A stretch of 35,152 nucleotides of DNA from Dehalococcoidia bacterium (GTDB lineage Bacteria > Chloroflexota > Dehalococcoidia > Dehalococcoidales > RBG-16-60-22). The position numbers and the translations under genes are program-made. Shown piece by piece: positions 8,487 through 34,222 of the stretch; the first letter of the stretch is position 1; every line of letters begins with the position of its first letter. The notes below the pieces were generated by a model that was not told where the DNA came from, did not search any database, and saw only the letters and a list, made by a program, of their open reading frames with translations. The stretch spans positions 1 through 35,152 of the forward strand of contig DUFB01000086.1 of assembly GCA_011192005.1 (NCBI GenBank), written 5' to 3'.

Positions 8487-9725
8487 TCAATTCACCAGGT
8501 CCGAAGCCAGATACAGATAGTCCCTGAGCAGGCGGGGCATGAGGTATTTCCCCCTCACGGACTCTTTTCCAGCCCTGCCCATGCTTTCGGCAACGTCAGG
8601 GTTCCTCAGCAAGGTCACAATCCGCTCGGCGCAGTCAGAAGGATTATCTACCAGAAAACCGGTTTCGCCATCGCGAATCTGGTGTCTGATACCACCGCAG
8701 TTACCACCGATTAGAGGCCTCTCTTTCCACATGGCCTCCGCCACCGTCAGACCGAAGCCCTCACGAATGGACTTCTGAAGGACAACATCCGAGCCGGACT
8801 GAAAAGCGTTCACTTCCCTGTCGCCGATAAGCTGCGGGTCGGAAAAGATATGGATATCGGAATCGTCTCTGCAATAACCCTGAAGATTTTTTAGAATTTC
8901 ACAAGCATCAAAATCGTCTTTGGCTGTCATGGCACCGACAAAGGCAAGCTGAAGACCGGGTACCTCTTTTTTCGCCAGCCTGTAGGCGTCAGCCACGCCC
9001 CACGGGTCTTTCCACTTATCGAAGCGTGATACCTGCGATATAATCGGGCGATCGTGATCCATACCCAGCCCGGCCATTATCTGCCTTGCCTGTGAATACG
9101 TCATCTGACGGTGCTTGGGCTGCAAGGGGTCGATTGCCGGCGGAATAACGACCACTTCGGTGGGATTGTTGCCGTTGGGGAAATACTCGGGCATACTGGC
9201 TATTATCCTCTTATATTTGGTCATATAAGGGAAAAGCATCTGTCGGACTTCTTCATTGGGCCGGGTGGTATCAACATGGCAAATCCAGACGCCGATATCC
9301 GAATTCATATACGCCAACATGGGTAGAACCTGGGCATCGTGGATAAACCACAGGTCGGCAGTAACTCCCATTGATTTCAAAGAATTGACCGCTTTCTCGT
9401 TTTGCGCCTGGTAACAGGTAAAATCCGCAGCACTGGGTACGGAACTGCCTCCCTGGAGACTGTGATGTAGAGTTTTACTGATGCTGAAGAAGGAATCATC
9501 AGGCAACATGGCATACCACTCGGTTTGAAGGCCGACGTCCCGCATGAGTGGCACCAGCGATTTCAGTATCTCCGCTACTCCGCCACCCTGTGCCGTAGCA
9601 TTAATGTGGATTACGCGCAGTCCCCGCAGCTTTTCGGCAACCTCAGTTACATCTGAAAGTATACCCTCAGGTACAATACCGTGATATCCATTGAGTCTGG
9701 CTGCCCTGGTAGAGACTAACTGCAT
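8487..9725 (-). CDS. treT: TreT-like trehalose synthase / GT4 glycosyltransferase
   Basis: The 412-residue GT4 protein starts with the TreT-like block VIHINATAQGGGVAEIL and carries ISQVSRFDKWKDPWG, VLQKSIREGFGLTVAEAMWKERPLIGGNCGGI and a GT-B C-terminal half. TreT joins NDP-glucose and glucose to give trehalose. The track start (9740, MEENY...) places the ribosome site inside the gene. ATG 9725 (MQLVSTR) has GGAGGAG 8 nt upstream and is the better start. It converges with the membrane protein at 8464. Trehalose could serve stress protection; a role in polysaccharide synthesis is less likely but possible. Confidence 0.8.
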   Translation of the reverse strand: MQLVSTRAARLNGYHGIVPEGILSDVTEVAEKLRGLRVIHINATAQGGGVAEILKSLVPLMRDVGLQTEWYAMLPDDSFFSISKTLHHSLQGGSSVPSAADFTCYQAQNEKAVNSLKSMGVTADLWFIHDAQVLPMLAYMNSDIGVWICHVDTTRPNEEVRQMLFPYMTKYKRIIASMPEYFPNGNNPTEVVVIPPAIDPLQPKHRQMTYSQARQIMAGLGMDHDRPIISQVSRFDKWKDPWGVADAYRLAKKEVPGLQLAFVGAMTAKDDFDACEILKNLQGYCRDDSDIHIFSDPQLIGDREVNAFQSGSDVVLQKSIREGFGLTVAEAMWKERPLIGGNCGGIRHQIRDGETGFLVDNPSDCAERIVTLLRNPDVAESMGRAGKESVRGKYLMPRLLRDYLYLASDLVN

Positions 9726-10001
9726 GTAATTCTCCTCCATACCGGTAATGATAGCCTAGCCACGGGTATACCTAAGTACAATCTAGATAATCTAACTTAC
9801 AACGGCATAACACAAAGGTGATTAATTCTCACAAAAACAGCACAATGGCAACCCGGATAATATCCATGCTGGTTTTGTGTTTTACCAACAGCTCTACTTT
9901 AACGGCTGCAGGTAAGAAGACGGTAGGACAAAGGTAGAATTTGATTAGATTTGAAGGTTAGCGATAAATATTTGAATGCGCTGTGATACGTGAGGGGAGG
10001 T

Positions 10002-10964
10002 TTATTTATGATAGTCTTTGTATGTTCTGGCTGTCCGCTGCTCCAGCGGTAAGGAAAAGCTAAAAACGCTGCCTCCCTGGAGCCTGTTCCTGGCCCATAT
10101 CCGTCCACCATGACCTTCTACTATCATCTGACAGATATACAGACCTAGGCCAGCACCAGGGGTGCTTTTTATTATCTGGTTATCCACCCGGTAAAATCGT
10201 TGGAATATTTTTTCCAGGTCGTCTTCAGGTACCCCTATTCCGTCATCGGTGATATTCACAACGAGAGAAGGAAAGCTAATCACAGGGGGATCCTTAGAAA
10301 ACTCACTCAGCTCCTCTTCATTGCGGACCAAGCGAGTATCTACGGTAATTTCGCCACCCTGTGGCGAGTATTTAATTGCATTGGTAAGAAGATTAGTTAA
10401 AACCTGTTCAATCTTTTCCGGTTCCAATCTTACCAAGGGCAGGCGCTCCACAGGGTTAATTTTAATAACGTGTTTGTTGGTCTGGCTCTGCATTTCCGGC
10501 ACTACCCGCCGCAGTACATCGTTAAAATAAACGGAATGGGTTATCCAGGTATCAGAGCTCTCAAGATGAGATATATCCCTCAGGTTCTCCAACAGATGAA
10601 GCATACGGTTACTGGCTAATTCTATACCCCGGAGATACTGCTTTTTCTGCTCTTCCGTAATAGAATCGCTGAGTTCCAGTAAAGTCCCGGTGTATCCTTT
10701 GATAACGGTAAGAGGCGATAGTATCTCGTGCCATAACACCGAGAGATCATCTATAGTGGTATATTTATTCTTTTCACGTGTAGATGCAGCATAGGTTACC
10801 GGGAGACCATCTTTGTCTTTAAACACCATCAATTCCGTACCGCTTTTCTCATTACTCTCGTGATACATATTACCCTTCGCTATTCTCTCCCGTAAGATAC
10901 TATCTTTATTAAAATCAGTAAGGAAAACCCTATTCTTCTGGTGAGCGGGATAATCGCGCTTCAT
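10002..10964 (-). CDS. PhoR-like sensor histidine kinase without an obvious sensor domain
   Basis: HisKA motif LWHEILSPLTVIKGY (His79) is followed by the N box NLLTNAIKYSPQGG, the G1 box DDGIGVPEDDLEKIF, an F box (RFYRV) and the G2 box GAGLGLYICQMIVEGHGG, so the kinase looks active. The form of the H box and HATPase is PhoR/WalK-like. Only about 70 residues precede HisKA, with no transmembrane helix and no complete PAS domain, so input must come through a partner protein. It lies 9 nt after the response regulator in the same operon, and its ribosome site falls in the end of that gene. The natural output is the 11-bp-repeat regulon, by inference. Confidence 0.92.
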   Translation of the reverse strand: MKRDYPAHQKNRVFLTDFNKDSILRERIAKGNMYHESNEKSGTELMVFKDKDGLPVTYAASTREKNKYTTIDDLSVLWHEILSPLTVIKGYTGTLLELSDSITEEQKKQYLRGIELASNRMLHLLENLRDISHLESSDTWITHSVYFNDVLRRVVPEMQSQTNKHVIKINPVERLPLVRLEPEKIEQVLTNLLTNAIKYSPQGGEITVDTRLVRNEEELSEFSKDPPVISFPSLVVNITDDGIGVPEDDLEKIFQRFYRVDNQIIKSTPGAGLGLYICQMIVEGHGGRIWARNRLQGGSVFSFSLPLEQRTARTYKDYHK

Positions 10965-10973
10965 TATGTTATG

Positions 10974-11696
10974 TTAACTCCCTAGCGTACCAGCCTCTTC
11001 TGTCTCACTAGCCTGGGCGAAGTAATATCCAACACCCCTTTCGGTTAATATAAGCTTCGGTGTATGAGGATTCTCTTCTATCTTCTGGCGAAGGTACCTG
11101 ATATAGAGTTTAACGAAAGATTTATCGCCGATATAGTTGGGGCCCCAGGCTTTCTCCAGAAGTTGCTCGTGAGTTACTATCCAGCCCCGGTTTTTAATCA
11201 AACAGGATAGAATCCTGAATTCCGTAGGTGATAATTTCACCCGTTTCCCCCTGACATATACCTGGCGACTTCTCCACTCTATCTCGATCTCGCCGTTATG
11301 GAAATTACTTGGTTCGTTCTCGATATTAGTTGAACCGGTCCGTCTCAGGACGGCCTGCACTCTGGCTATCAATTCACGAAAATCAACCGGTTTGGTAATA
11401 TAATCATCAGCACCGAGGTCAAAACCTCGTAGTTTATCGGCTTTCTTACCATTTACGGTTACCATCATCACGGGGATATCACTCATATCCCTGATTCGGC
11501 GACATACTTCCCAGCCATCCATCTTGGGAATATTAGCATCGAGAAGTACCAGATTGGGTCGGTTGCTGTAAACACGGCGCATACCCTCGGCGCCATCCTG
11601 AGCGGTAAATACATCATACCCTGCGTTCTTGAGCCACATGCGTGTCAGATTGGAAAATTCAATATCATCTTCGATTAATAATATCTTGCCTCTCAT
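10974..11696 (-). CDS. OmpR/PhoB-family response regulator
   Basis: The 240-residue regulator has a complete receiver (acidic triad E9/D10/D11, phosphoacceptor Asp53 in LVLLDANIPKMDG, Lys in YITKPVD) and a winged-helix DNA-binding domain (LSPTEFRILSCLIKNRGWIVTHEQLLEKAWG, ending in ERGVGYYF). Proteins of this family bind tandem direct repeats spaced 11 bp apart. Just such repeats lie upstream on the other side of the intergenic region and at several promoters in this window. TAGGAGGA lies upstream of the ATG. Its partner kinase follows directly. It is the best candidate to bind those operators. Confidence 0.95.
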   Translation of the reverse strand: MRGKILLIEDDIEFSNLTRMWLKNAGYDVFTAQDGAEGMRRVYSNRPNLVLLDANIPKMDGWEVCRRIRDMSDIPVMMVTVNGKKADKLRGFDLGADDYITKPVDFRELIARVQAVLRRTGSTNIENEPSNFHNGEIEIEWRSRQVYVRGKRVKLSPTEFRILSCLIKNRGWIVTHEQLLEKAWGPNYIGDKSFVKLYIRYLRQKIEENPHTPKLILTERGVGYYFAQASETEEAGTLGS

Positions 11697-12170: not shown

Positions 12171-12226
12171 TCTAACCATTTTCTAACTTCACTCTGACAT
12201 CAATCTAACGCCCCCCGGAGTATCAT
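12171..12226 (+). promoter_or_regulatory. PhoB/OmpR-type operator array and promoter of the 853-aa gene
   Basis: This is the clearest array: TCTAAC (12171), TCTAAC (12182), TCTGAC (12193) and TCTAAC (12204), all spaced 11 bp. A -10 element TATCAT (12221-12226) starts 11 nt after the last hexamer, so the last repeat covers the -35 position as in PhoB-activated promoters. The start codon lies 43 nt further down. Confidence 0.75.
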
Positions 12227-12268: not shown

Positions 12269-14830
12269 ATGGCATCTAGCGATAGCTACATCGTTGCACA
12301 AAAAGCGGGTAAAATCCTGGCGGTTAATTCCGACCCCGAAGTAATTCGCATACTCGGCGTGAATCTAATACACGCGAATCTGGAATTCGTTTCAGCGCAA
12401 AGTGGCGTTGAGGCAATCGATAAAACCTTCTCGGAGAGACCGGATATTATATTACTGGGCCCACCGCTTCCTGACATAGACCTCAATAATATTTTCCAGC
12501 GGCTACAGAGGTCTCCAGAAACCAGCCAGATACCCATCATCGTTATCAGTGCCACGAAATCCGATCATATTGATACCCGCCAATCAGAAAATGGGACTAT
12601 CCACTATATTACCAAGCCGTTTGACCCGAATGAGATAGTGAACCTGGTACAGACACATTTAAGACAAAAAAGACGGGTAGAAAATATTCATCCGCTAACC
12701 GGATTACCGAACCAGGCCCAGGTCATAGCGGAAATGACAGAGATAATAGACCAGAAAAAGGCATTTGCCGTTATCTACATTGTCTTAGAAAACCTTACAG
12801 CCTTTAATAAAAATTACGGTTACTTACAGGGCGATCGCGCCATCAGGCTAGCAGCTGACATTATCACGGAAAAAGTCCGGATTTTCGGTAATCAGGATGA
12901 CCTGGTGGGGCATGTAAACGGTAATAAATTCGTCATTATCAGTACACCCTCCAAAGCCAAGGTTTTATGCCACCGGATAACCACCAAATTCAACCGTCGC
13001 ATCAGGGACCTTTATACAGATGAAGAGATTCAAAAAGACGATTTATCGAATGAAAATCCGGATGGTAATAAAGTCCAAAACACCATAATGAGCCTCTGCA
13101 TGGTTCTGGTTACCAACGAGAAACGTACTTTTCGGCATTATCTTGAAGTATACGAGGCTATTACCACACAAATGGACCACTCCCGGCATTCCCCCGATGA
13201 TAATACGCATCAGGGTATCCAAACCAGCGATACCGAGTCAGAAATGGCGGCGGCCCCCGGTTGTGTGTCCGGCACACAAAGAGAGGAGCTCAGGGTATTA
13301 TCCGGCGTTTTGGACTGGCTGGATTTCACTATCAGAGAGCTTGAAGTACCACTCGCCATTACCCGGGACAGCATAAGTTCTTTAGTTAACCTTGATGTTG
13401 AAAGCCTGGGGCCAGAGCAAAAGAATACCCTGAAAACGGTCAGCGATAAAGTTAACCAGCTTGAGCGCATAATAGAAGGACTAAATTGTTTAACAAGAGT
13501 TAAACGACATACCGCCGACGTCATCTTCGAAGAAGTTGAAATGGGCAACACTCTTGAGTGGGTTGTCAACCAGGTACGTGATATGCTGGAACAACGTGAT
13601 ATTCACATCAATGTCTCCGTGGTGGACAAATTGAGTCCAATTTCGATAGACAGGCGGACTCTCACCGAATGTCTTCTTTATCTGATAAAGAATGAAATCC
13701 AGTTCCTGCCACCTGAGAGTCGCCTGGACATACGTGCTGCCGATGTGAATGAAAAATTCCTTACCGTACTGATAACCAATCCTCGTCATCAGATTCCACA
13801 AAAAGCACCGGGGGAAACAAATCCCGACGCATTGAAGCAAAGGATTTATCCCGCCAAGCTGATGCTCCAGGGATTGGGCGGTAAGTTGAACGTTACCAGT
13901 GAAAAAGAGGAAGGGACGATATACACCCTCATCATCCCTAAAAAATGGCACAGCTGGATGCAGGAAACGAGCTCGTTACAGCAGGCAACCGAAACAGTAA
14001 GAAAAGAAGCACAATCAGAACTGACAAATATCCGTCACTTATTGTCATCAATCTCGGAGCAAGTGCCGCCACCGGTGAAATACAGCCTGGAAAAAATAAA
14101 AAACAGAATCCAGGAATTAGGAGTGCTCTGCAACCGTACGTTATTTTTGACAGAAGACCTGAACAGTCGATTGGAAATACAGCAGGAATCGCTGCTACAA
14201 CAGGAGATAGAACAGCTGGCCAGCCTGGAAGCAATACTGGCGGTAGGCAGAGAAATAGCCAGGTCAATGAACCTCGAATGGGTCTTTAGACCAGAAAGAG
14301 CCGAGTTTGTATCCAAATGGGTATTAAGCATTGCCAGGGAGTACAAGCTGTCAGAAAGCGACTGCCAATCACTGCGATATGCCGCGATGATAGATGACCT
14401 GGGGCTGGTTTTATCTCCTCAGATTTTAACCGAACTGGCGCTGGTATCCGGTGAAGAAGCAACCAGAATACGGGAACGCTTTTACCCGATGTGGAAAGCC
14501 CTCTCGGGTATTCCGTTTCTCAAGACAGCCATCATTTATGTCCGTCATATATATAATATGTACGGTATAAACGGCAGTCATTCTGAGGTAAAAGGGGCGG
14601 ATGTACCGCTGGGAGCAAAAATTCTCTACCTGGTAAGTACTTTTGAACGTCTTATATCTGGTCTACCATCACGGGAGAAACTTAGTCCGAACCAGGCACT
14701 AAACAGAATCACCAATAAATCTGGCTGGTGTTTTGAATCATATATATTGAATACGTTTTTACAGTTATGGCGTCGGCAAACGCCTTCTGGAGATAATGCA
14801 TCGGTTAAGAAGCTGAATGATGGTTTCTAA
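12269..14830 (+). CDS. Multi-domain pseudo-signalling protein (receiver, GGDEF, histidine kinase and HD-GYP-like, all degenerate)
   Basis: Four signalling modules can be traced in 853 residues, each without its key residues. Residues 14-135 are a receiver in which the phosphoacceptor Asp is Gly64 (IILLGPPLPD), although the Lys of ITKPFD is kept. Residues 140-300 resemble GGDEF (starting HPLTGLPN), but the signature reads NGNKF (217-221). Residues 340-560 resemble HisKA/HATPase: the H box reads RELEVPLA, with Arg356 for His, the N box keeps N475, and the G1 DxGxG is absent. Residues 675-825 resemble HD-GYP, but the HD site reads AAMIDDLGL and the GYP loop is lost. A helical, coiled-coil-like linker spans about 560-670. 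The frame is intact and conserved in shape, so it is not a decayed gene. It probably acts as a scaffold or ligand-binding regulator. Its promoter carries the regulon operator. Confidence 0.8.
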   Translation: MASSDSYIVAQKAGKILAVNSDPEVIRILGVNLIHANLEFVSAQSGVEAIDKTFSERPDIILLGPPLPDIDLNNIFQRLQRSPETSQIPIIVISATKSDHIDTRQSENGTIHYITKPFDPNEIVNLVQTHLRQKRRVENIHPLTGLPNQAQVIAEMTEIIDQKKAFAVIYIVLENLTAFNKNYGYLQGDRAIRLAADIITEKVRIFGNQDDLVGHVNGNKFVIISTPSKAKVLCHRITTKFNRRIRDLYTDEEIQKDDLSNENPDGNKVQNTIMSLCMVLVTNEKRTFRHYLEVYEAITTQMDHSRHSPDDNTHQGIQTSDTESEMAAAPGCVSGTQREELRVLSGVLDWLDFTIRELEVPLAITRDSISSLVNLDVESLGPEQKNTLKTVSDKVNQLERIIEGLNCLTRVKRHTADVIFEEVEMGNTLEWVVNQVRDMLEQRDIHINVSVVDKLSPISIDRRTLTECLLYLIKNEIQFLPPESRLDIRAADVNEKFLTVLITNPRHQIPQKAPGETNPDALKQRIYPAKLMLQGLGGKLNVTSEKEEGTIYTLIIPKKWHSWMQETSSLQQATETVRKEAQSELTNIRHLLSSISEQVPPPVKYSLEKIKNRIQELGVLCNRTLFLTEDLNSRLEIQQESLLQQEIEQLASLEAILAVGREIARSMNLEWVFRPERAEFVSKWVLSIAREYKLSESDCQSLRYAAMIDDLGLVLSPQILTELALVSGEEATRIRERFYPMWKALSGIPFLKTAIIYVRHIYNMYGINGSHSEVKGADVPLGAKILYLVSTFERLISGLPSREKLSPNQALNRITNKSGWCFESYILNTFLQLWRRQTPSGDNASVKKLNDGF

Positions 14831-14864: not shown

Positions 14865-14911
14865 TTGATATATTGAAAATAGAAATAACGAAAACAGGAG
14901 TCGTTATTCGT

Positions 14912-16252
14912 ATGAGTAACATCAGTGTTATCGGAGCTGGATACGTTGGTTTATCAACAGCCGCATGTTTCGCAGAACTGGGACACAATATAACTCTTAT
15001 AGAAATCGATCCCGAGAAGCTGACCGCTTTAAAAAACGGATTAATGCCCATCAGCGAACCGGGACTTAATGAGATGTGGCAGCGTAATAAGCAGGAAGAC
15101 AGGATAAATGTTACCAATAATCATATGGATGGATTATTGGGTGCCGAGTTCGCATTCATAGCCGTGGGCACACCAGCAGCCTCTAACGGGAAACCTGATC
15201 TGAAATGGGTAAGGCTCGCCGCCAAGAACATTGCCGAAGCTGCCAGTGGCCCCATGGTTATAGTCATTAAGAGTACCGTACCGATAGGCACAGCTGAAAT
15301 CATCGACAGGATAGTCAGCTATAATGACCGGAACGGTCACAGCCTTCCCGTGGTATCTAACCCGGAATTTCTGAGAGAAGGTGCTGCTATCTATGATTTC
15401 ATGCATCCCAGCCGTGTTGTCATCGGTTCGTCAAGTCAAGAAGCCATCGATGTTGTAAGCAAGCTGTACAAACCGCTTGATTCGCCAATAATTACCTGTG
15501 ATAACCGTACCGCCGAGATGTCAAAGTACGCCTGCAATGCTTTCTTGGCCACCAGGATCAGCTTCATGAACGAAATTGCCCTTCTCTGTGATGAATACAG
15601 CGTGGATATTGTAAAGGTAGCCAAAATAATGGGATTAGACCCGCGTTTCGGCAGTGGCTATCTCAATGCCGGACTGGGATGGGGAGGTAGTTGTTTACCC
15701 AAAGACCTCAAAGGTCTCATACACATGGCAAAAAGCCGCGGATTCCCGGCCCGCCTGCTCCGTGCCGTCCAGCAGATAAACCAGCAGCAGGTATATATAG
15801 TAATAAGGAAGCTTCACTGGCTTCTGGGTAATCTTGAAGGTAAGACTATTGGTATTCTGGGACTTGCGTTCAAGCCGAATTCAGACGACGTACGAGAGGC
15901 ACGTTCACTGCTGATAATTTCGCTTTTAGAAAACGAAGGCTGCCGTATTAAAGCTTACGACCCGGACCCGACCGCCATGCAAAACGCCGGGAAACTAAAG
16001 ATTGACGTTACTTATTGTGCCAACGCATATGAAGTCGCCAAAGACAGTGACGCTATAGTACTCGTTACCGAATGGGAGGAATTCAAAGAGCTCGACATGC
16101 CGGCGATGGCTTCAATGATGAATCAACCTATCATTGTGGACGGTCGAAATCTTTATGACCCGGATGAGATGATTCAAGCTGGATTCCTGTATGAAGGAAT
16201 CGGCCGTTGCAGCCAGCGTACCCAGGAAACCAGAATAGGTATCGTTCAATAA
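14912..16252 (+). CDS. ugd: UDP-glucose 6-dehydrogenase
   Basis: The enzyme makes UDP-glucuronic acid from UDP-glucose with two NAD. It shows GAGYVGLSTAACFAELGH (Rossmann fold), NPEFLREGAA, and the catalytic cysteine in GWGGSCLPKDLKGL, all typical of the Ugd/TuaD group. The C-terminal domain has LGLAFKPNSDDVREARS. I place the start at ATG 14912 (446 aa), which has CAGGAG upstream; the track start is a TTG at 14873 without support and lies in the promoter. The stop overlaps the next ATG (TAATG). With the second dehydrogenase at 6372, the cell can make both a hexuronic and a hexosaminuronic acid. Confidence 0.92.
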   Translation: MSNISVIGAGYVGLSTAACFAELGHNITLIEIDPEKLTALKNGLMPISEPGLNEMWQRNKQEDRINVTNNHMDGLLGAEFAFIAVGTPAASNGKPDLKWVRLAAKNIAEAASGPMVIVIKSTVPIGTAEIIDRIVSYNDRNGHSLPVVSNPEFLREGAAIYDFMHPSRVVIGSSSQEAIDVVSKLYKPLDSPIITCDNRTAEMSKYACNAFLATRISFMNEIALLCDEYSVDIVKVAKIMGLDPRFGSGYLNAGLGWGGSCLPKDLKGLIHMAKSRGFPARLLRAVQQINQQQVYIVIRKLHWLLGNLEGKTIGILGLAFKPNSDDVREARSLLIISLLENEGCRIKAYDPDPTAMQNAGKLKIDVTYCANAYEVAKDSDAIVLVTEWEEFKELDMPAMASMMNQPIIVDGRNLYDPDEMIQAGFLYEGIGRCSQRTQETRIGIVQ

Positions 16253-23346: not shown

Positions 23347-24693
23347 TTATTTAAGTGAAGTCTTTCTCTCTTTTTCAATCGGTGTAAAGAGCGTTTCCAG
23401 AATCCTTAATATGAAATCGTTAATGGTAATTGCATCTATATCGCCGGTAACAGAGACAGCGCTTCTGGCCTGATTCGGCCACCGCCAGTATCTGACCAGC
23501 GGAGCATCGGTTTGTTCAATTTTTTGGGAAAGTGCCTTTTCTTCAGTCTTATCAAACTCCGCCAGACCTTCCAGGTACACTGAATAATTATCAGGTTGTT
23601 CACCAGATTCAACAATATAGCCTTCATTCCGCAGTAATTGAATGGCACGCGGAGATGAGTCAGGTTTAACACCGATAACAGGCTTCTTTGTGCTCTCTAT
23701 TACAAAATCCCTGGATTCAACGCTCTGATAACCATCAAACCACTCTTTTACAGGAACATTAACTCCGGCATTTTTCACCAATATGGTAGCCCTTTCGGAG
23801 CAATCCGCCTTTACTCTATATTTGCCATGACCTTCGTCCTCTATCCGGAACTGAAAATTATTCCTCTCCTTCCACCACTCGGTTACTTCCCTTAAAGTAG
23901 CCAGCCATATTGGCGGATTGTATTGCTTCAAATCCCTGATTATACCGATGAGAGTTTTTTCGTAATGAGAAATCCTTTCCGGGTGAAGTTGAATGGTAAA
24001 AATCTCACCTGATTGGTAAGATTTCTTAACAATATCATTCCAGATACTGCTCATTTTATCTTCATCGGTAACACCGAGTCTTTCCATGATGATTTCGTCA
24101 TCTGGCATTGAAACCGGAATTTCAACGAAATTATCGATTATCCGGGGCAGAACGAGGTAGCTTCGAGCCTGATGTGTGTTATAATAATCCAAAACCCTCT
24201 GGTATTCACGACGTGCCTCTCTGGTAAATCCATCATTATCATCAATGACATCCCAGTGCACGGTAATGCTGCTGTCATACTTAAATCCCAGGTCATTAAT
24301 TACCCGAAATGTGTTGTCATTAGTACGTAAGAACGGAGCTCTGAAACCGGTAAAAGGGATTTCACATTTATTAAAGGTTTCTATTGCTTTATTGAAGTGC
24401 TTTTTTTGTTCTTGATAGCTCAACATACCATAGTCGGTGTGGATATAGCCATGAATCGCGAATTCAACTCCATACTGGCAGAGTTTCTTAATTAACTTTG
24501 GATGTCTTTTCAGAGTTACCGCGGTAAGAAAAAAGGTAGGTACGCATTCTAGTTCCCGGGTTAACGAACAATACTGGGTCAGCAAGCGTCTGAATTTTCT
24601 TGGAGAAAGACCAAAACGAGACAATACCGTACGTATTCTCGTTAGAATATTTTTAAGCCCTCGTGATTTCGATAATATGTGTAAAATATTCAC
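23347..24693 (-). CDS. Polysaccharide-deacetylase-fold protein with extra C-terminal region
   Basis: The 448-residue protein carries NodB-like elements: TFFLTAVTLKRHP, the His pair in HGYIHTDY (motif 2), GFRAPFLRTND (motif 3, Arg/Pro), and a late IQLHPERI. The expected motif 1 (TFDDG-like) is not in the N-terminal part. A similar acidic motif, SVTGDIDAIT, occurs at the far C-terminus after a linker domain, so the order appears permuted. The start is a GTG. It has no ribosome site and lies about 6 nt from the predicted transcription start, so it may be read as a nearly leaderless mRNA. The promoter carries the 11-bp-spaced hexamers. It probably acts on an N-acetylated sugar, but the substrate is unknown and activity is uncertain. 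Confidence 0.75.
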   Translation of the reverse strand: MNILHILSKSRGLKNILTRIRTVLSRFGLSPRKFRRLLTQYCSLTRELECVPTFFLTAVTLKRHPKLIKKLCQYGVEFAIHGYIHTDYGMLSYQEQKKHFNKAIETFNKCEIPFTGFRAPFLRTNDNTFRVINDLGFKYDSSITVHWDVIDDNDGFTREARREYQRVLDYYNTHQARSYLVLPRIIDNFVEIPVSMPDDEIIMERLGVTDEDKMSSIWNDIVKKSYQSGEIFTIQLHPERISHYEKTLIGIIRDLKQYNPPIWLATLREVTEWWKERNNFQFRIEDEGHGKYRVKADCSERATILVKNAGVNVPVKEWFDGYQSVESRDFVIESTKKPVIGVKPDSSPRAIQLLRNEGYIVESGEQPDNYSVYLEGLAEFDKTEEKALSQKIEQTDAPLVRYWRWPNQARSAVSVTGDIDAITINDFILRILETLFTPIEKERKTSLK

Positions 24694-24716
24694 TATCGTA
24701 ATGATGCTATATTCAA

Positions 24717-24755
24717 GTTAGAATGAGGTAAGAAAAATGGACTCTTCCGGTTAGA
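24717..24755 (-). promoter_or_regulatory. Minus-strand copy of the 11-bp operator array
   Basis: On the minus strand TCTAAC (24755-24750), a poor match GAGTCC (24744), TCTTAC (24733) and TCTAAC (24722-24717) are spaced 11 bp. A possible -10, TATAGC (24711-24706), follows at 5 nt, closer than at the other promoters. The gene start is GTG 24693. The inverted orientation matches the minus-strand gene it would control. Confidence 0.55.
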
Positions 24756-25320: not shown

Positions 25321-25505
25321 AAATACCCCGATATTTAACGAATGGACATCAGCAGGATTTAAAATACCCCGCTTTTTTAGATCACGAATATTCCTACTGG
25401 TTTCTAACCCATTGATAACTACTTATTAACAGTAATTCCATATATTTAAGGTGTGGTTGGCTGATATCAGGTCATCACTTAAATAGGACAGGGTATAAAT
25501 ACCCC
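25321..25505 (+). repeat. Three direct copies of AAATACCCC upstream of the kinase operon
   Basis: The 9-mer AAATACCCC occurs at 25321-25329, 25362-25370 and 25497-25505, that is, on both sides of the 11-bp operator and just before the start codon at 25512. The third copy also forms the arm of a short inverted repeat (GGGTA-TAAA-TACCC). Three copies of a 9-mer in 185 bp suggest a second operator, perhaps for the adjacent HTH protein. Confidence 0.4.
25392..25446 (+). promoter_or_regulatory. PhoB/OmpR-type operator array and promoter of the kinase/PqqD/peptide operon
   Basis: TCCTAC (25392), TCTAAC (25403), GATAAC (25414) and ATTAAC (25425) are exactly 11 bp apart. A -10 element TATATT (25441-25446) begins 10 nt after the last hexamer, nearly the same geometry as at 12171-12226. 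The start codon follows at 25512. This ties the peptide operon to the same regulator as the exopolysaccharide genes. Confidence 0.65.
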
Positions 25506-25511
25506 ATTTAA

Positions 25512-26471
25512 ATGGAGAAGCGGCCTAAAGAAATGAAAGCTTTACTACCGAAACGGGTAAATACCACTGAATTAGAAAGTACCCTAGGATTACAGATAGG
25601 GAGTATCTGTTGTGAATTGAGATGTAACGATCCCGAAATCCTCCGAAAGCTCCAGGATGTATACCGTAACTATCTGGTTGATGCCGAACCCGATGTTTTC
25701 GTAGAGTTAGAATTAACATCCCGCTTGAGTACCAGTAAAATCAGTTCAATTTTAACAAGAAGCAGATATATACGCCACGGGAATCGTTTCCGCAGTTCCG
25801 GGAGACTGCTCCAAGGGCAGTATGACCTGGACAGCCGCACCGTAAAGATCACAGGAGAGAAAGCACTGATAGATCCAGATAACAGTACCAATCTTCTGAA
25901 TCAGCTGATTTCCGTGTCATACTATTCTGCCTGTAAGATGAAATACGGGACCAATCCACCAGCCATGCTGGTGCACGCCTGCGGCATCCTGCGTAACGGA
26001 AAAATCCTCATTTTCGCCGGGCCCAGTAATATCGGGAAGACAACTATAGCCCGACTTTGCAGCGATAGACAAGGCGAGGTTTTCAACGATGAAATATTAC
26101 TGATGTCCCGCCCCGGTGTAAACGGGAAAGGTGTAATCATCCAGAACACGCCTATAATTGGTGATCTCCTGCCCGGACGGAACACCACGGCACCACTAAG
26201 ATGTATTTTTTTGCTCAAGCAGAATAACAGAACAGCCTGGCGTTATCTTGATAAAGCTGAGGCGTATTTACGCTTTATGCGTCAGATAATCGGCCCGTCA
26301 TGCGTGGGGAATTATGATAAAAAAACCGCCTACTCCATAATGGCGGATTTCAGTTCTGAAGTGGTTAAGTCCATCCCCATATACGAGCTTGAATTTAACA
26401 GGGACAGCGATACCCTCTGGCGAGTCACCGACGAACTTGAGGGAATAACAGGAGCGGAGTATCTGAATTGA
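25512..26471 (+). CDS. HprK-like kinase of a PqqD/peptide system
   Basis: The 319-residue protein has about 150 poorly conserved N-terminal residues, then a P-loop kinase core: LVHACGILRNGKILIFAGPSNIGKTTIA, with the Walker A at residues 170-177, and an HprK-like acidic motif VFNDE at 190-194. It lacks the hexamer-forming N-domain of true HPr kinases, and no HPr is encoded nearby. Related kinases occur in exopolysaccharide loci (HPr-rel systems) and in lasso clusters such as paeninodin, where the kinase phosphorylates the precursor C-terminus. The stop overlaps the next start by 4 nt. The start could also be ATG 25533. Its target is likely the peptide at 26806 or a carrier protein, by inference. 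Confidence 0.82.
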   Translation: MEKRPKEMKALLPKRVNTTELESTLGLQIGSICCELRCNDPEILRKLQDVYRNYLVDAEPDVFVELELTSRLSTSKISSILTRSRYIRHGNRFRSSGRLLQGQYDLDSRTVKITGEKALIDPDNSTNLLNQLISVSYYSACKMKYGTNPPAMLVHACGILRNGKILIFAGPSNIGKTTIARLCSDRQGEVFNDEILLMSRPGVNGKGVIIQNTPIIGDLLPGRNTTAPLRCIFLLKQNNRTAWRYLDKAEAYLRFMRQIIGPSCVGNYDKKTAYSIMADFSSEVVKSIPIYELEFNRDSDTLWRVTDELEGITGAEYLN

Positions 26472-31846: not shown

Positions 31847-34222
31847 ATGGCCAATCTCCTGGAAATCAAGAACAAGATTATAGGTATCAAGAAAGCCCAC
31901 CACAGGCATACAGAAAATCTCAGCAAACCGGCAAATAACAGCGATGTTCCGGAAACGCCTGGCAAAATGGATATATCCACACACCAGAAAGCCGAGACGG
32001 CACTGCATGAATCGGTGGAGAAACTAGCCAAAGCCTTCCTTTGCTGTCCTGATGCCATCGCCATCACCACGATAAAAGATGGCAGATTCATCGCCATCAA
32101 CGATGGTTTCACGCGGATTACCGGAGGTAAACGGGAGGAAACACTAGGACGTACCGCTAAAGAAATCAGTTGCTGGGAGAGCATGAAGGAGCGCGAGAGA
32201 ATAGTAAAAATATTGGAGGAGCAGGGCCGGGTTTACAACGAGGAAGTTCACCTGCGTATGAAATCGGGGAAAATAGTTACAGCCCTCTTCTCAGGTGATC
32301 CAATCGAGATCGATGGTGAACCATGCATGGTATCCATAGCAAGGGATATCACAGAAACGAAACAAGCACTAGAGGCGATTAAAGAAAGTGAAGAATTCAG
32401 CACCAGCCTTCTGGAAAACGCTCCTAATCCCATAACAGTAATCCATCCGGATACATCCATAAAATATGTTAATCCAGCTTTTGAAAAATTGACTGGTTTC
32501 TCCCTGGCTGAGATCATCGGGAAGAAAGCGCCTTTTCCATGGTGGCCCCAAAATAGATGGTCAGCAAGAGCCGAAGGCTTGAAGGAATTTATGGAGGGCG
32601 GAGGTAAAATTACCGAGCAGACTATAAAGAACAGGAACGGCGAGTTGATTAAAATAGAAATGAATATGGTACGGATAATGCATAATGGTGAGTTCAAGTA
32701 TTATCTGGCCCACTGGAATGATATCACCGAACGCAAGCAAAACGAAGAGAAACTTAAAGAAAGCGAAGTAAAATTCAGAATACTTGCCGAACGCTCACCA
32801 AACATGATTTTTATTAATAAAAACGGGGCGATAGTGTATGCTAACAAGAAATGCGAAGAGGTGATGGGTTATACAAGAGAAGAATTCTATGACCCCGGTT
32901 TTAACTTTTTAAACTTAATAGCACCGGAGTCTAAAGAGTTAGTTAAAAAATATTTTAATAAACATATTCAAGGCGAAGACGTAGTACCATACGAATATAC
33001 GCTGGTTACCAAGGACGGTACCAAAATTGAGGCAATAGTTACCACGGCGTTGATAAAATACGAGGGAGAGAACGCCATTCTGGGAACGATAACCGATATT
33101 ACCGAACAAAAAAAGGTACAGGATATTCTAACCAATGAAGCTACCTGGCGGCGCATTATGGTCGAGCAATCAAGAGACGGGATTGTCATCCTCGACCAGA
33201 ACGGTAAGGTGTACGAAGCAAACCGGCAATTCGGAGAGATTCTCGGATACTCTCCTGTGGAGTTACTTCAACTCTATGTCTGGGACTGGGATTCTCAACA
33301 TACACAGGAACAAATAAAGGAAATGATAAATAGTGTTAACGAAGACGGTGACCACTTTGAAACAGGCTGGAAACGCAAGGATGGTACGATTGTTGATGTT
33401 GAGATAAGTACCAATGGAGCAACATTCGGGGAACGGAAGCTCATTTTCTGCGTGTGCCGCGACATAACAAGTCGAAAACGGGCAGAGGAGGCACTAAAAG
33501 AAGCGGAATACAAATACCGGGACCTGCTTGATAATACCAACGAGCTGATACAGTCGGTAACACCGGACGGGCGCTTCAGGTATGTGAATAACGGCTGGAA
33601 ACAGGCCCTGAGCTACAGCGAAGAAGAGATCGCCAAGATGAGCGTATTCGACATCGTGCACCCCGATTACCTGGAAAATTACCGGATAATGTTCAGAAAG
33701 ATAACAGCCGGCGAGAAAGTCGGGCAAATACACACGGCTTTTGTAAGTAAAAACGGCAGCAAAGTAGTGGTTGAGGGAAACGTAAACTGCAAATACGAAA
33801 ACGGTGAAGTGGTATATACGCGCAGTATTTTACGGGATATTACCGAAAATAAATATCTCGAGGACCAGATGTTCCGCCTGTCCAGCGCGGTATCAATGTC
33901 CACGGACTATATCGTGATAACAGATTTCGATGCGAATATTATAGATATAAACCAGAAGACCCTGGATATGTACGGCGCCGACAGCAAGGACGAACTGCTG
34001 GGAAGGCACTTCCTGGAGCTGATTTACCCGCCACAACGGGGAATGGTGAACGAAGACGTCGCCCAAGTCATGGAGAAGGGATATCTGGAACGTCGAGAGT
34101 ATACTATGGTATCCAAACACGGCCAGCAGTATCCAGTACAGGTAAGCACGTCGCTGGTCAGGGACGCGGACGGCAAGCCGATGGGAATGGTGCGCGTGGG
34201 CAGGGAACTCAGTAATCCCTGA
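31847..34222 (+). CDS. Six-PAS-domain protein without an output domain
   Basis: The 791-residue soluble protein is a chain of about six PAS/PAC modules, at roughly residues 55-175, 178-300, 304-425, 428-550, 553-672 and 672-790. Each ends in the PAC-like phrase DIT(E/S)xK or an equivalent (for example ARDITETK, WNDITERK, ITDITEQK, CRDITSRK, LRDITENK), and the last closes at VRVGRELSNP. No histidine kinase, GGDEF, EAL or HTH domain follows, and a terminator comes 26 nt later, so the protein really stops there. It has no membrane helix. GGAGG precedes the ATG. It may sense redox or ligands and pass the signal by binding a partner, such as the sensor-less kinase at 10002, though that link is speculative. 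Confidence 0.9.
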   Translation: MANLLEIKNKIIGIKKAHHRHTENLSKPANNSDVPETPGKMDISTHQKAETALHESVEKLAKAFLCCPDAIAITTIKDGRFIAINDGFTRITGGKREETLGRTAKEISCWESMKERERIVKILEEQGRVYNEEVHLRMKSGKIVTALFSGDPIEIDGEPCMVSIARDITETKQALEAIKESEEFSTSLLENAPNPITVIHPDTSIKYVNPAFEKLTGFSLAEIIGKKAPFPWWPQNRWSARAEGLKEFMEGGGKITEQTIKNRNGELIKIEMNMVRIMHNGEFKYYLAHWNDITERKQNEEKLKESEVKFRILAERSPNMIFINKNGAIVYANKKCEEVMGYTREEFYDPGFNFLNLIAPESKELVKKYFNKHIQGEDVVPYEYTLVTKDGTKIEAIVTTALIKYEGENAILGTITDITEQKKVQDILTNEATWRRIMVEQSRDGIVILDQNGKVYEANRQFGEILGYSPVELLQLYVWDWDSQHTQEQIKEMINSVNEDGDHFETGWKRKDGTIVDVEISTNGATFGERKLIFCVCRDITSRKRAEEALKEAEYKYRDLLDNTNELIQSVTPDGRFRYVNNGWKQALSYSEEEIAKMSVFDIVHPDYLENYRIMFRKITAGEKVGQIHTAFVSKNGSKVVVEGNVNCKYENGEVVYTRSILRDITENKYLEDQMFRLSSAVSMSTDYIVITDFDANIIDINQKTLDMYGADSKDELLGRHFLELIYPPQRGMVNEDVAQVMEKGYLERREYTMVSKHGQQYPVQVSTSLVRDADGKPMGMVRVGRELSNP

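Follow-up and report, generated by a model that had tools for sequence, protein, structure and literature searches.

Single signalling domains that have lost their catalytic function are well known. The pseudo-histidine kinase DivL of Caulobacter, in which the phospho-histidine is replaced, is described as signalling without kinase activity (PMC4211667). The protein of our study, encoded in the window (the whole 35,152-nucleotide stretch of Dehalococcoidia DNA that was analysed), likewise has a DHp/CA fold with the phospho-histidine replaced. DivL, as described there, keeps the other kinase boxes and PAS domains, whereas the window protein lacks the D and G boxes and its pseudo-kinase sits between GGDEF and HD-GYP domains, behind a receiver. 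RetS, acting on GacS, and the pseudokinase ChrS are described as modulating another kinase through hetero-oligomers, their own catalysis not being needed (PMC5992135, PMC9491836). The window protein is also kinase-like, but its link to the neighbouring kinase is genetic only, and its pseudo-DHp is poorly conserved while RetS is described as a hybrid sensor kinase. The REC–HD-GYP regulators (RpfG type, NosR NF053512) share the receiver and the HD-GYP output; in the window protein, however, the active site is lost and GGDEF and kinase-like domains are inserted between the two. The REC–GGDEF proteins of Chloroflexota (GGDDF) are homologous over aa 10-325, the segment that follows the A-site included, but their receiver Asp and GGDDF are intact and, in the alignments examined, they have no kinase-like/HD-GYP half. 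Bd1817, an inactive HD-GYP protein, is described as having no phosphodiesterase activity, lacking the GYP tyrosine and binding metal (PMC4159591); the window protein resembles it in having the fold without the phosphodiesterase signature and differs in that almost all metal ligands are gone. The kinds represented by DivL, RetS, ChrS and the inactive HD-GYP are thus known, and what is new is four dead domains in one chain with ordered losses. In the open-licence literature, no title or abstract was found to describe a REC–GGDEF–DHp/CA–HD-GYP architecture of dead domains.

The ORF at 12269-14830 opens with ATG at 12269, ends with its stop at 14830 and has no internal stop. An earlier sequence-only reading had given this frame correctly as intact over 853 codons, although its label "giant" is an overstatement for 853 aa. 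Its central proposal, that four folds have been kept and their activities lost, is borne out for the window copy by Pfam, the residue table and profile-profile comparison (Table 1). Three Pfam matches were above cut-offs (Response_reg 1e-13, GGDEF 1.4e-10, HD_5 3.8e-15) and that to HisKA was weak (0.0037, below its own cut-off), while HATPase_c was matched in six of the eight family members, the window copy not being among them. Profile-profile alignment, for which reference sets were domains taken from the same genomes and mismatched controls stayed below 1% probability, has confirmed all four folds: 99.9% for the receiver (E 5e-34, a match to the receiver of the neighbouring regulator), 99.4% for GGDEF (E 3e-21), 99.1% for the kinase region (E 2e-18 across DHp and CA, 217 columns, against seven kinases) and 100% for the HD part (E 7.5e-53). 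Single-sequence AlphaFold2 models were of low confidence (pLDDT 42.8 for the kinase-like part, 50.3 for the linker–HD part), so the fold assignments rest on the profile comparison; the linker was the sole part modelled as a confident helix (block pLDDT 66-80). Foldseek searches with the low-confidence kinase model matched histidine kinases weakly, RetS first (E about 1e-6, TM-scores just 0.23-0.34), and those with the low-confidence HD model returned no matches. The best NCBIfam match of the whole protein was the NosR family NF053512, with a score of 89 against a cut-off of 400.

Table 1. Features of the locus, with positions in the window.
Position	Strand	Feature	Basis
10002..10964	-	Histidine kinase; H, N, D and G boxes intact, no recognisable sensor domain	Pfam, domain analysis
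10974..11696	-	Divergent OmpR/PhoB-type response regulator; phospho-Asp intact, probable operator binder	Pfam, orthologue identity
12012..12039	+	Second, weaker operator; two perfect repeats and one degenerate	Repeat scan
12171..12209	+	Operator TCTAAC/TCTAAC/TCTGAC/TCTAAC; four direct repeats, 11-bp period	23/24, shuffles, orthologous loci
12221..12226	+	TATCAT, putative -10 element, 11 bp past the last repeat	Read from sequence, promoter function inferred
12269..14830	+	REC–GGDEF–DHp/CA–linker–HD-GYP protein, 853 aa; catalytic signatures all lost	ORF, Pfam, profile-profile
12308..12658	+	Receiver fold, aa 14-130; Gly64 at phospho-Asp, N20/S21 replace acidic pair, Ser94 and Lys116 kept	Pfam, residue table, profile
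12680..13243	+	GGDEF fold, aa 138-325; NGNKF, metal Asp substituted, I-site arginine missing	Pfam, residue table, profile
13286..13948	+	Histidine-kinase-like DHp/CA, aa 340-560; Arg356 in place of His, DxGxG and GLGL box missing	HK853 alignment, profile, Pfam
13949..14263	+	Long helical linker, aa 561-665; among the best-conserved parts of the window copy	Region identities, AlphaFold2 helix
14264..14788	+	HD-GYP fold, aa 666-840; DDLGL, HHE and GYP absent, D710 the sole one left of eight metal ligands	Pfam, residue table, profile
14873..16252	+	UDP-glucose dehydrogenase family enzyme; first gene of downstream polysaccharide cluster	Pfam
24706..24733	-	Operator copy 13 bp before polysaccharide-deacetylase gene 23347-24693(-)	Operator scan

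All the substitutions that the sequence-only reading had listed are correct in the window copy: Gly64 (codon GGC, 12458-12460) at the phospho-Asp position of the receiver, NGNKF (residues 217-221) at the GGDEF site, Arg356 for the H-box histidine together with the absence of DxGxG, and DDLGL (residues 709-713) at HDxGK. Arg356 aligns with the phospho-His of HK853 and His79 of the neighbouring kinase, and the DxGxG position reads N-P-R-H-Q. The losses extend beyond that list to the receiver acidic pair, the GGDEF metal Asp (V in Y-I-V-L-E), the ATP-binding G boxes and seven of the eight HD-GYP metal ligands, D710 (D222 in PmGH numbering) alone remaining. The receiver has the fold without the phosphorylatable Asp and the acidic pair, and neither the GG[DE]EF site nor the metal Asp of a diguanylate cyclase is present. 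Likewise, the DHp and CA folds of a histidine kinase are found with the phospho-His and the D and G boxes lost and only the N-box Asn N474 left, and of the eight metal ligands plus K225 (PmGH numbering) of an HD-GYP phosphodiesterase only the D222 equivalent is left. Codon 474 (13688-13690) encodes Asn in the window copy, and A, G or S is found there in the other seven members. The I-site RxxD before the A-site reads N..D in the window, and its arginine is missing in all eight members; RxxD is carried by other GGDEF proteins of the genomes examined.

The family consists of eight full-length genes, the window copy and seven orthologues found among roughly 1000 Chloroflexota genomes searched. 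One full-length orthologue (G001, 39% identity) was found among 61 genomes, and searches of the order, class and phylum added G104, G105, G103, G252, G305 and G607, the last being the most distant (23% identity, different class of the phylum). The G186 orthologue is split into two adjacent ORFs of 338 and 485 aa (L127:7466-9978), behind a two-repeat operator. No relatives of the ORF were found among the viral sequences scanned, the scan of genome contigs gave domain-level matches only, and among the plasmid matches listed there were only REC-GGDEF proteins, covering at most 28% of the query.

Comparison of these relatives has shown a stepwise decay of the catalytic sites. The kinase histidine is present in none of the eight, its position being occupied by R in the window, G252 and G305, N in G001 and G607, and E in G104, G105 and G103. 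The HD motif reads DD in the window, KD in six members and HD in G607, where the HD-GYP site is nearly intact (HHERYDGTGYP for HHExxDGxGYP, seven of eight metal ligands, K225 absent); the remaining seven members have lost the site. Both acidic residues of the receiver are present (DD) in G252, G305 and G607; G104 and G105 read D-H, and G103, G001 and the window no longer have the pair. The GGDEF metal Asp is kept in the orthologues, with GGDNF, GSDNF, DGDDF, DGDNF or GEDDF at the site, and replaced in the window copy, and the receiver Asp is kept in 7/7 orthologues and lost only in the window. This series places the window copy at its end rather than as a typical member. Retention of catalytic residues by orthologues, which had been named as counting against four dead domains, was found in part, for the receiver Asp in all seven and for the HD-GYP of G607, the kinase His being kept in none; hence "all four dead" describes the window copy and not the family. 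The decay is confined to this family, as other readable GGDEF and HD-GYP proteins in the nine genomes have canonical motifs; on this ground both bad assemblies and a genome-wide loss of c-di-GMP signalling were rejected as its cause. In Chloroflexota REC-GGDEF proteins the receiver Asp was present in 30/30 examined and GGDDF in 29/30 (motif unreadable in the other), and such proteins are the likely source of the N-terminal half.

The divergent regulator (Response_reg 1.5e-28, Trans_reg_C 4.4e-24; 47-73% identity to orthologues) is kept in all eight readable loci. Direct repeats with an 11-bp period are the geometry of OmpR/PhoB-type activators, and predicted sites of this kind were found upstream of the family gene, beside the OmpR-type regulator. 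In the window the repeats (TCTAAC-N5-TCTAAC-N5-TCTGAC-N5-TCTAAC) match at 23/24 positions, a score reached in none of 2000 first-order Markov shuffles, which agrees with the strong operator claimed earlier. An operator also faces the family gene in G001, G104, G105, G103, G252, G607 and G186 (18-23/24, 0/2000 shuffles each), and the loci keeping regulator and operator range from members of the window's own family to a genome of a different class in the phylum. A -10-like element follows the last repeat by 10-11 bp in G001, G104, G105 and G103. The genome-wide scan gave 5-16 three-repeat operators per genome versus 0-2 for a reversed-pattern control, although many of the three-mismatch matches may be due to chance.

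The neighbouring kinase was found to have no recognisable sensor domain, as had been stated, and the linked kinase varies among genomes. It has 311-320 aa and no sensor in the window genome (G000), G001 and G104, and 545-586 aa with GAF or GAF+PAS in G103 and G252 (L064:5079-6713, L124:11970-13727); in G607 the regulator has no kinase next to it. The pseudo-kinase region and the neighbouring kinase share their matches to PhoR/PnpS-type models. In the sequence comparison, the SPLTLIKGY segment of that kinase was not found copied in the pseudo-DHp, and on the same comparison a recent duplication of the kinase was rejected as the source.

In six of the eight full-length loci the next gene downstream of the family gene is that of UDP-glucose dehydrogenase. 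A series of sugar transferase, oxidoreductase, acyltransferase and aminotransferase genes is common to the window, G104, G105 and G252. An operator is present 12-37 bp before a polysaccharide deacetylase gene in five genomes (window, G001, G104, G105, G252), and also before SDR epimerase (G000), Gfo/Idh oxidoreductase (G001) and DegT aminotransferase (G186) genes. Divergent from the deacetylase lies a 319-aa ORF (25392-26471, +) with a GPSNIGKTT P-loop and no Pfam match; in G001 the same place is taken by a remote counterpart, 25% identical over 161 aa, and degenerate operator repeats occur at 25392-25419. A two-mismatch operator-like pair (9933-9949, -) lies about 190 bp before the glycosyltransferase gene 8487-9740, and a 791-aa protein with about six PAS domains, in which no output domain was found, is encoded at 31847-34222 (+).

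The reading that we favour, at a probability of about 0.5, is that the window protein would be a non-enzymatic, regulator-induced adaptor or scaffold of a two-component system for surface polysaccharide. The regulator would bind the 11-bp repeats, the last of which lies at the position of a -35 box, and would switch on the ORF together with the polysaccharide genes carrying the same operator. The product may then work as a binding protein, with the conserved helical linker and the surfaces of the receiver and GGDEF domains as contact sites; candidate partners are the kinase without a sensor, the regulator and the polysaccharide machinery. The ancestral protein probably had a receiver serving as a phosphorylation switch, and possibly a phosphodiesterase at its HD-GYP end; the kinase histidine, the HD-GYP metal site and the receiver acidic pair would have been lost in steps, and the window lineage would have given up its receiver Asp too. 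Owing to this last loss, the window protein should act without phosphorylation and be controlled by its amount.

A more specific form of adaptor, in which the inactive DHp/CA region forms a pair with the kinase that has no sensor, or else contacts the regulator, and so supplies the missing input in the manner of RetS or DivL, is a tentative possibility; the likelihoods of the readings overlap for this reason and do not sum to one. The lack of a sensor in the kinases of the window genome, G001 and G104 makes such a role attractive, and the fixed divergent linkage to the regulator, the operator feedback, the shared PhoR/PnpS-type models, the RetS-first match of the low-confidence AlphaFold2 model and the precedents described for DivL (PMC4211667) and RetS-GacS (PMC5992135) are consistent with it. 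However, the kinases of G103 and G252 own GAF/PAS sensors and yet the protein is kept, and the pseudo-DHp differs from the specificity segment of the kinase's own DHp. As this DHp is also the fastest-evolving part (19% identity to the sister G001) and G607 has no adjacent kinase, the broader scaffold or adaptor is favoured over the kinase modulator.

Incipient decay, with the window copy on its way to becoming a pseudogene while its frame is still open, is unlikely. The family is rare, one member is split in G186, and residue losses are most numerous in the window copy, which has a somewhat longer branch (0.90 versus 0.67 for the sister, 1.3 times). Selection was estimated from the pairs G104-G105 and G252-G305, the window copy being without a close relative for such comparison. 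The G252-G305 pair (dN/dS 0.44 overall) has DHp, CA and HD relaxed (0.62-0.68) and only the receiver tight (0.14), so that constraint differs by lineage. Against decay, every domain is under purifying selection in G104/G105, whose kinase and HD sites are dead too: at 75% identity, dN/dS is 0.10 overall, 0.06 for HD and 0.15 each for DHp and receiver (range 0.04–0.15 across domains), figures that are approximate since dS of around 1-2.7 is near saturation. Moreover, 853 codons are open, the window operator equals those of the best orthologues, and the linker is 44-49% identical to class-level orthologues; compared with the sister it is 49% identical, the receiver 45%, GGDEF 40%, and CA and HD 36-37%. 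A non-catalytic function rather than decay, as proposed earlier, is thus rated the more likely from the open frame, the selection in the orthologue pair and the operator.

A role as nucleotide receptor, with GTP or c-di-GMP still bound by the degenerate GGDEF or HD-GYP domain and an allosteric signal as output, is quite unlikely, although the orthologues keep the metal Asp with a GDNF/GSDNF/GDDF-type site and the canonical GGDEF/HD-GYP enzymes of the same genomes indicate that c-di-GMP is probably present. In the window copy the GGDEF metal Asp is gone, as are all but one of the eight HD-GYP metal ligands, and the earlier idea of a ligand receptor is unsupported for c-di-GMP at the GGDEF I-site, since the arginine is missing from all eight members. 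The companion idea of a decoy, taken as a decoy or sink for phosphate, is excluded for the window copy by the absence of the receiver Asp. An assembly or sequencing error as the origin of Gly64, with a truly active receiver, is highly improbable, for even though Asp is found in seven orthologues and one base change could explain GGC, the acidic pair is also lost, adjacent residues differ (GPPLPD) and other domains carry independent losses.

It may further be proposed, though doubtfully, that a c-di-GMP-type response regulator has been turned in ordered steps into a wholly non-catalytic hub, which in the window would provide a phosphorylation-independent missing input for the sensor-less kinase. 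Four dead domains, relatives that order the losses and a conserved operator form a natural series for what pseudo-enzymes keep. The locus also ties the surface-polysaccharide genes of a poorly studied Chloroflexota lineage to one regulator with a readable operator.
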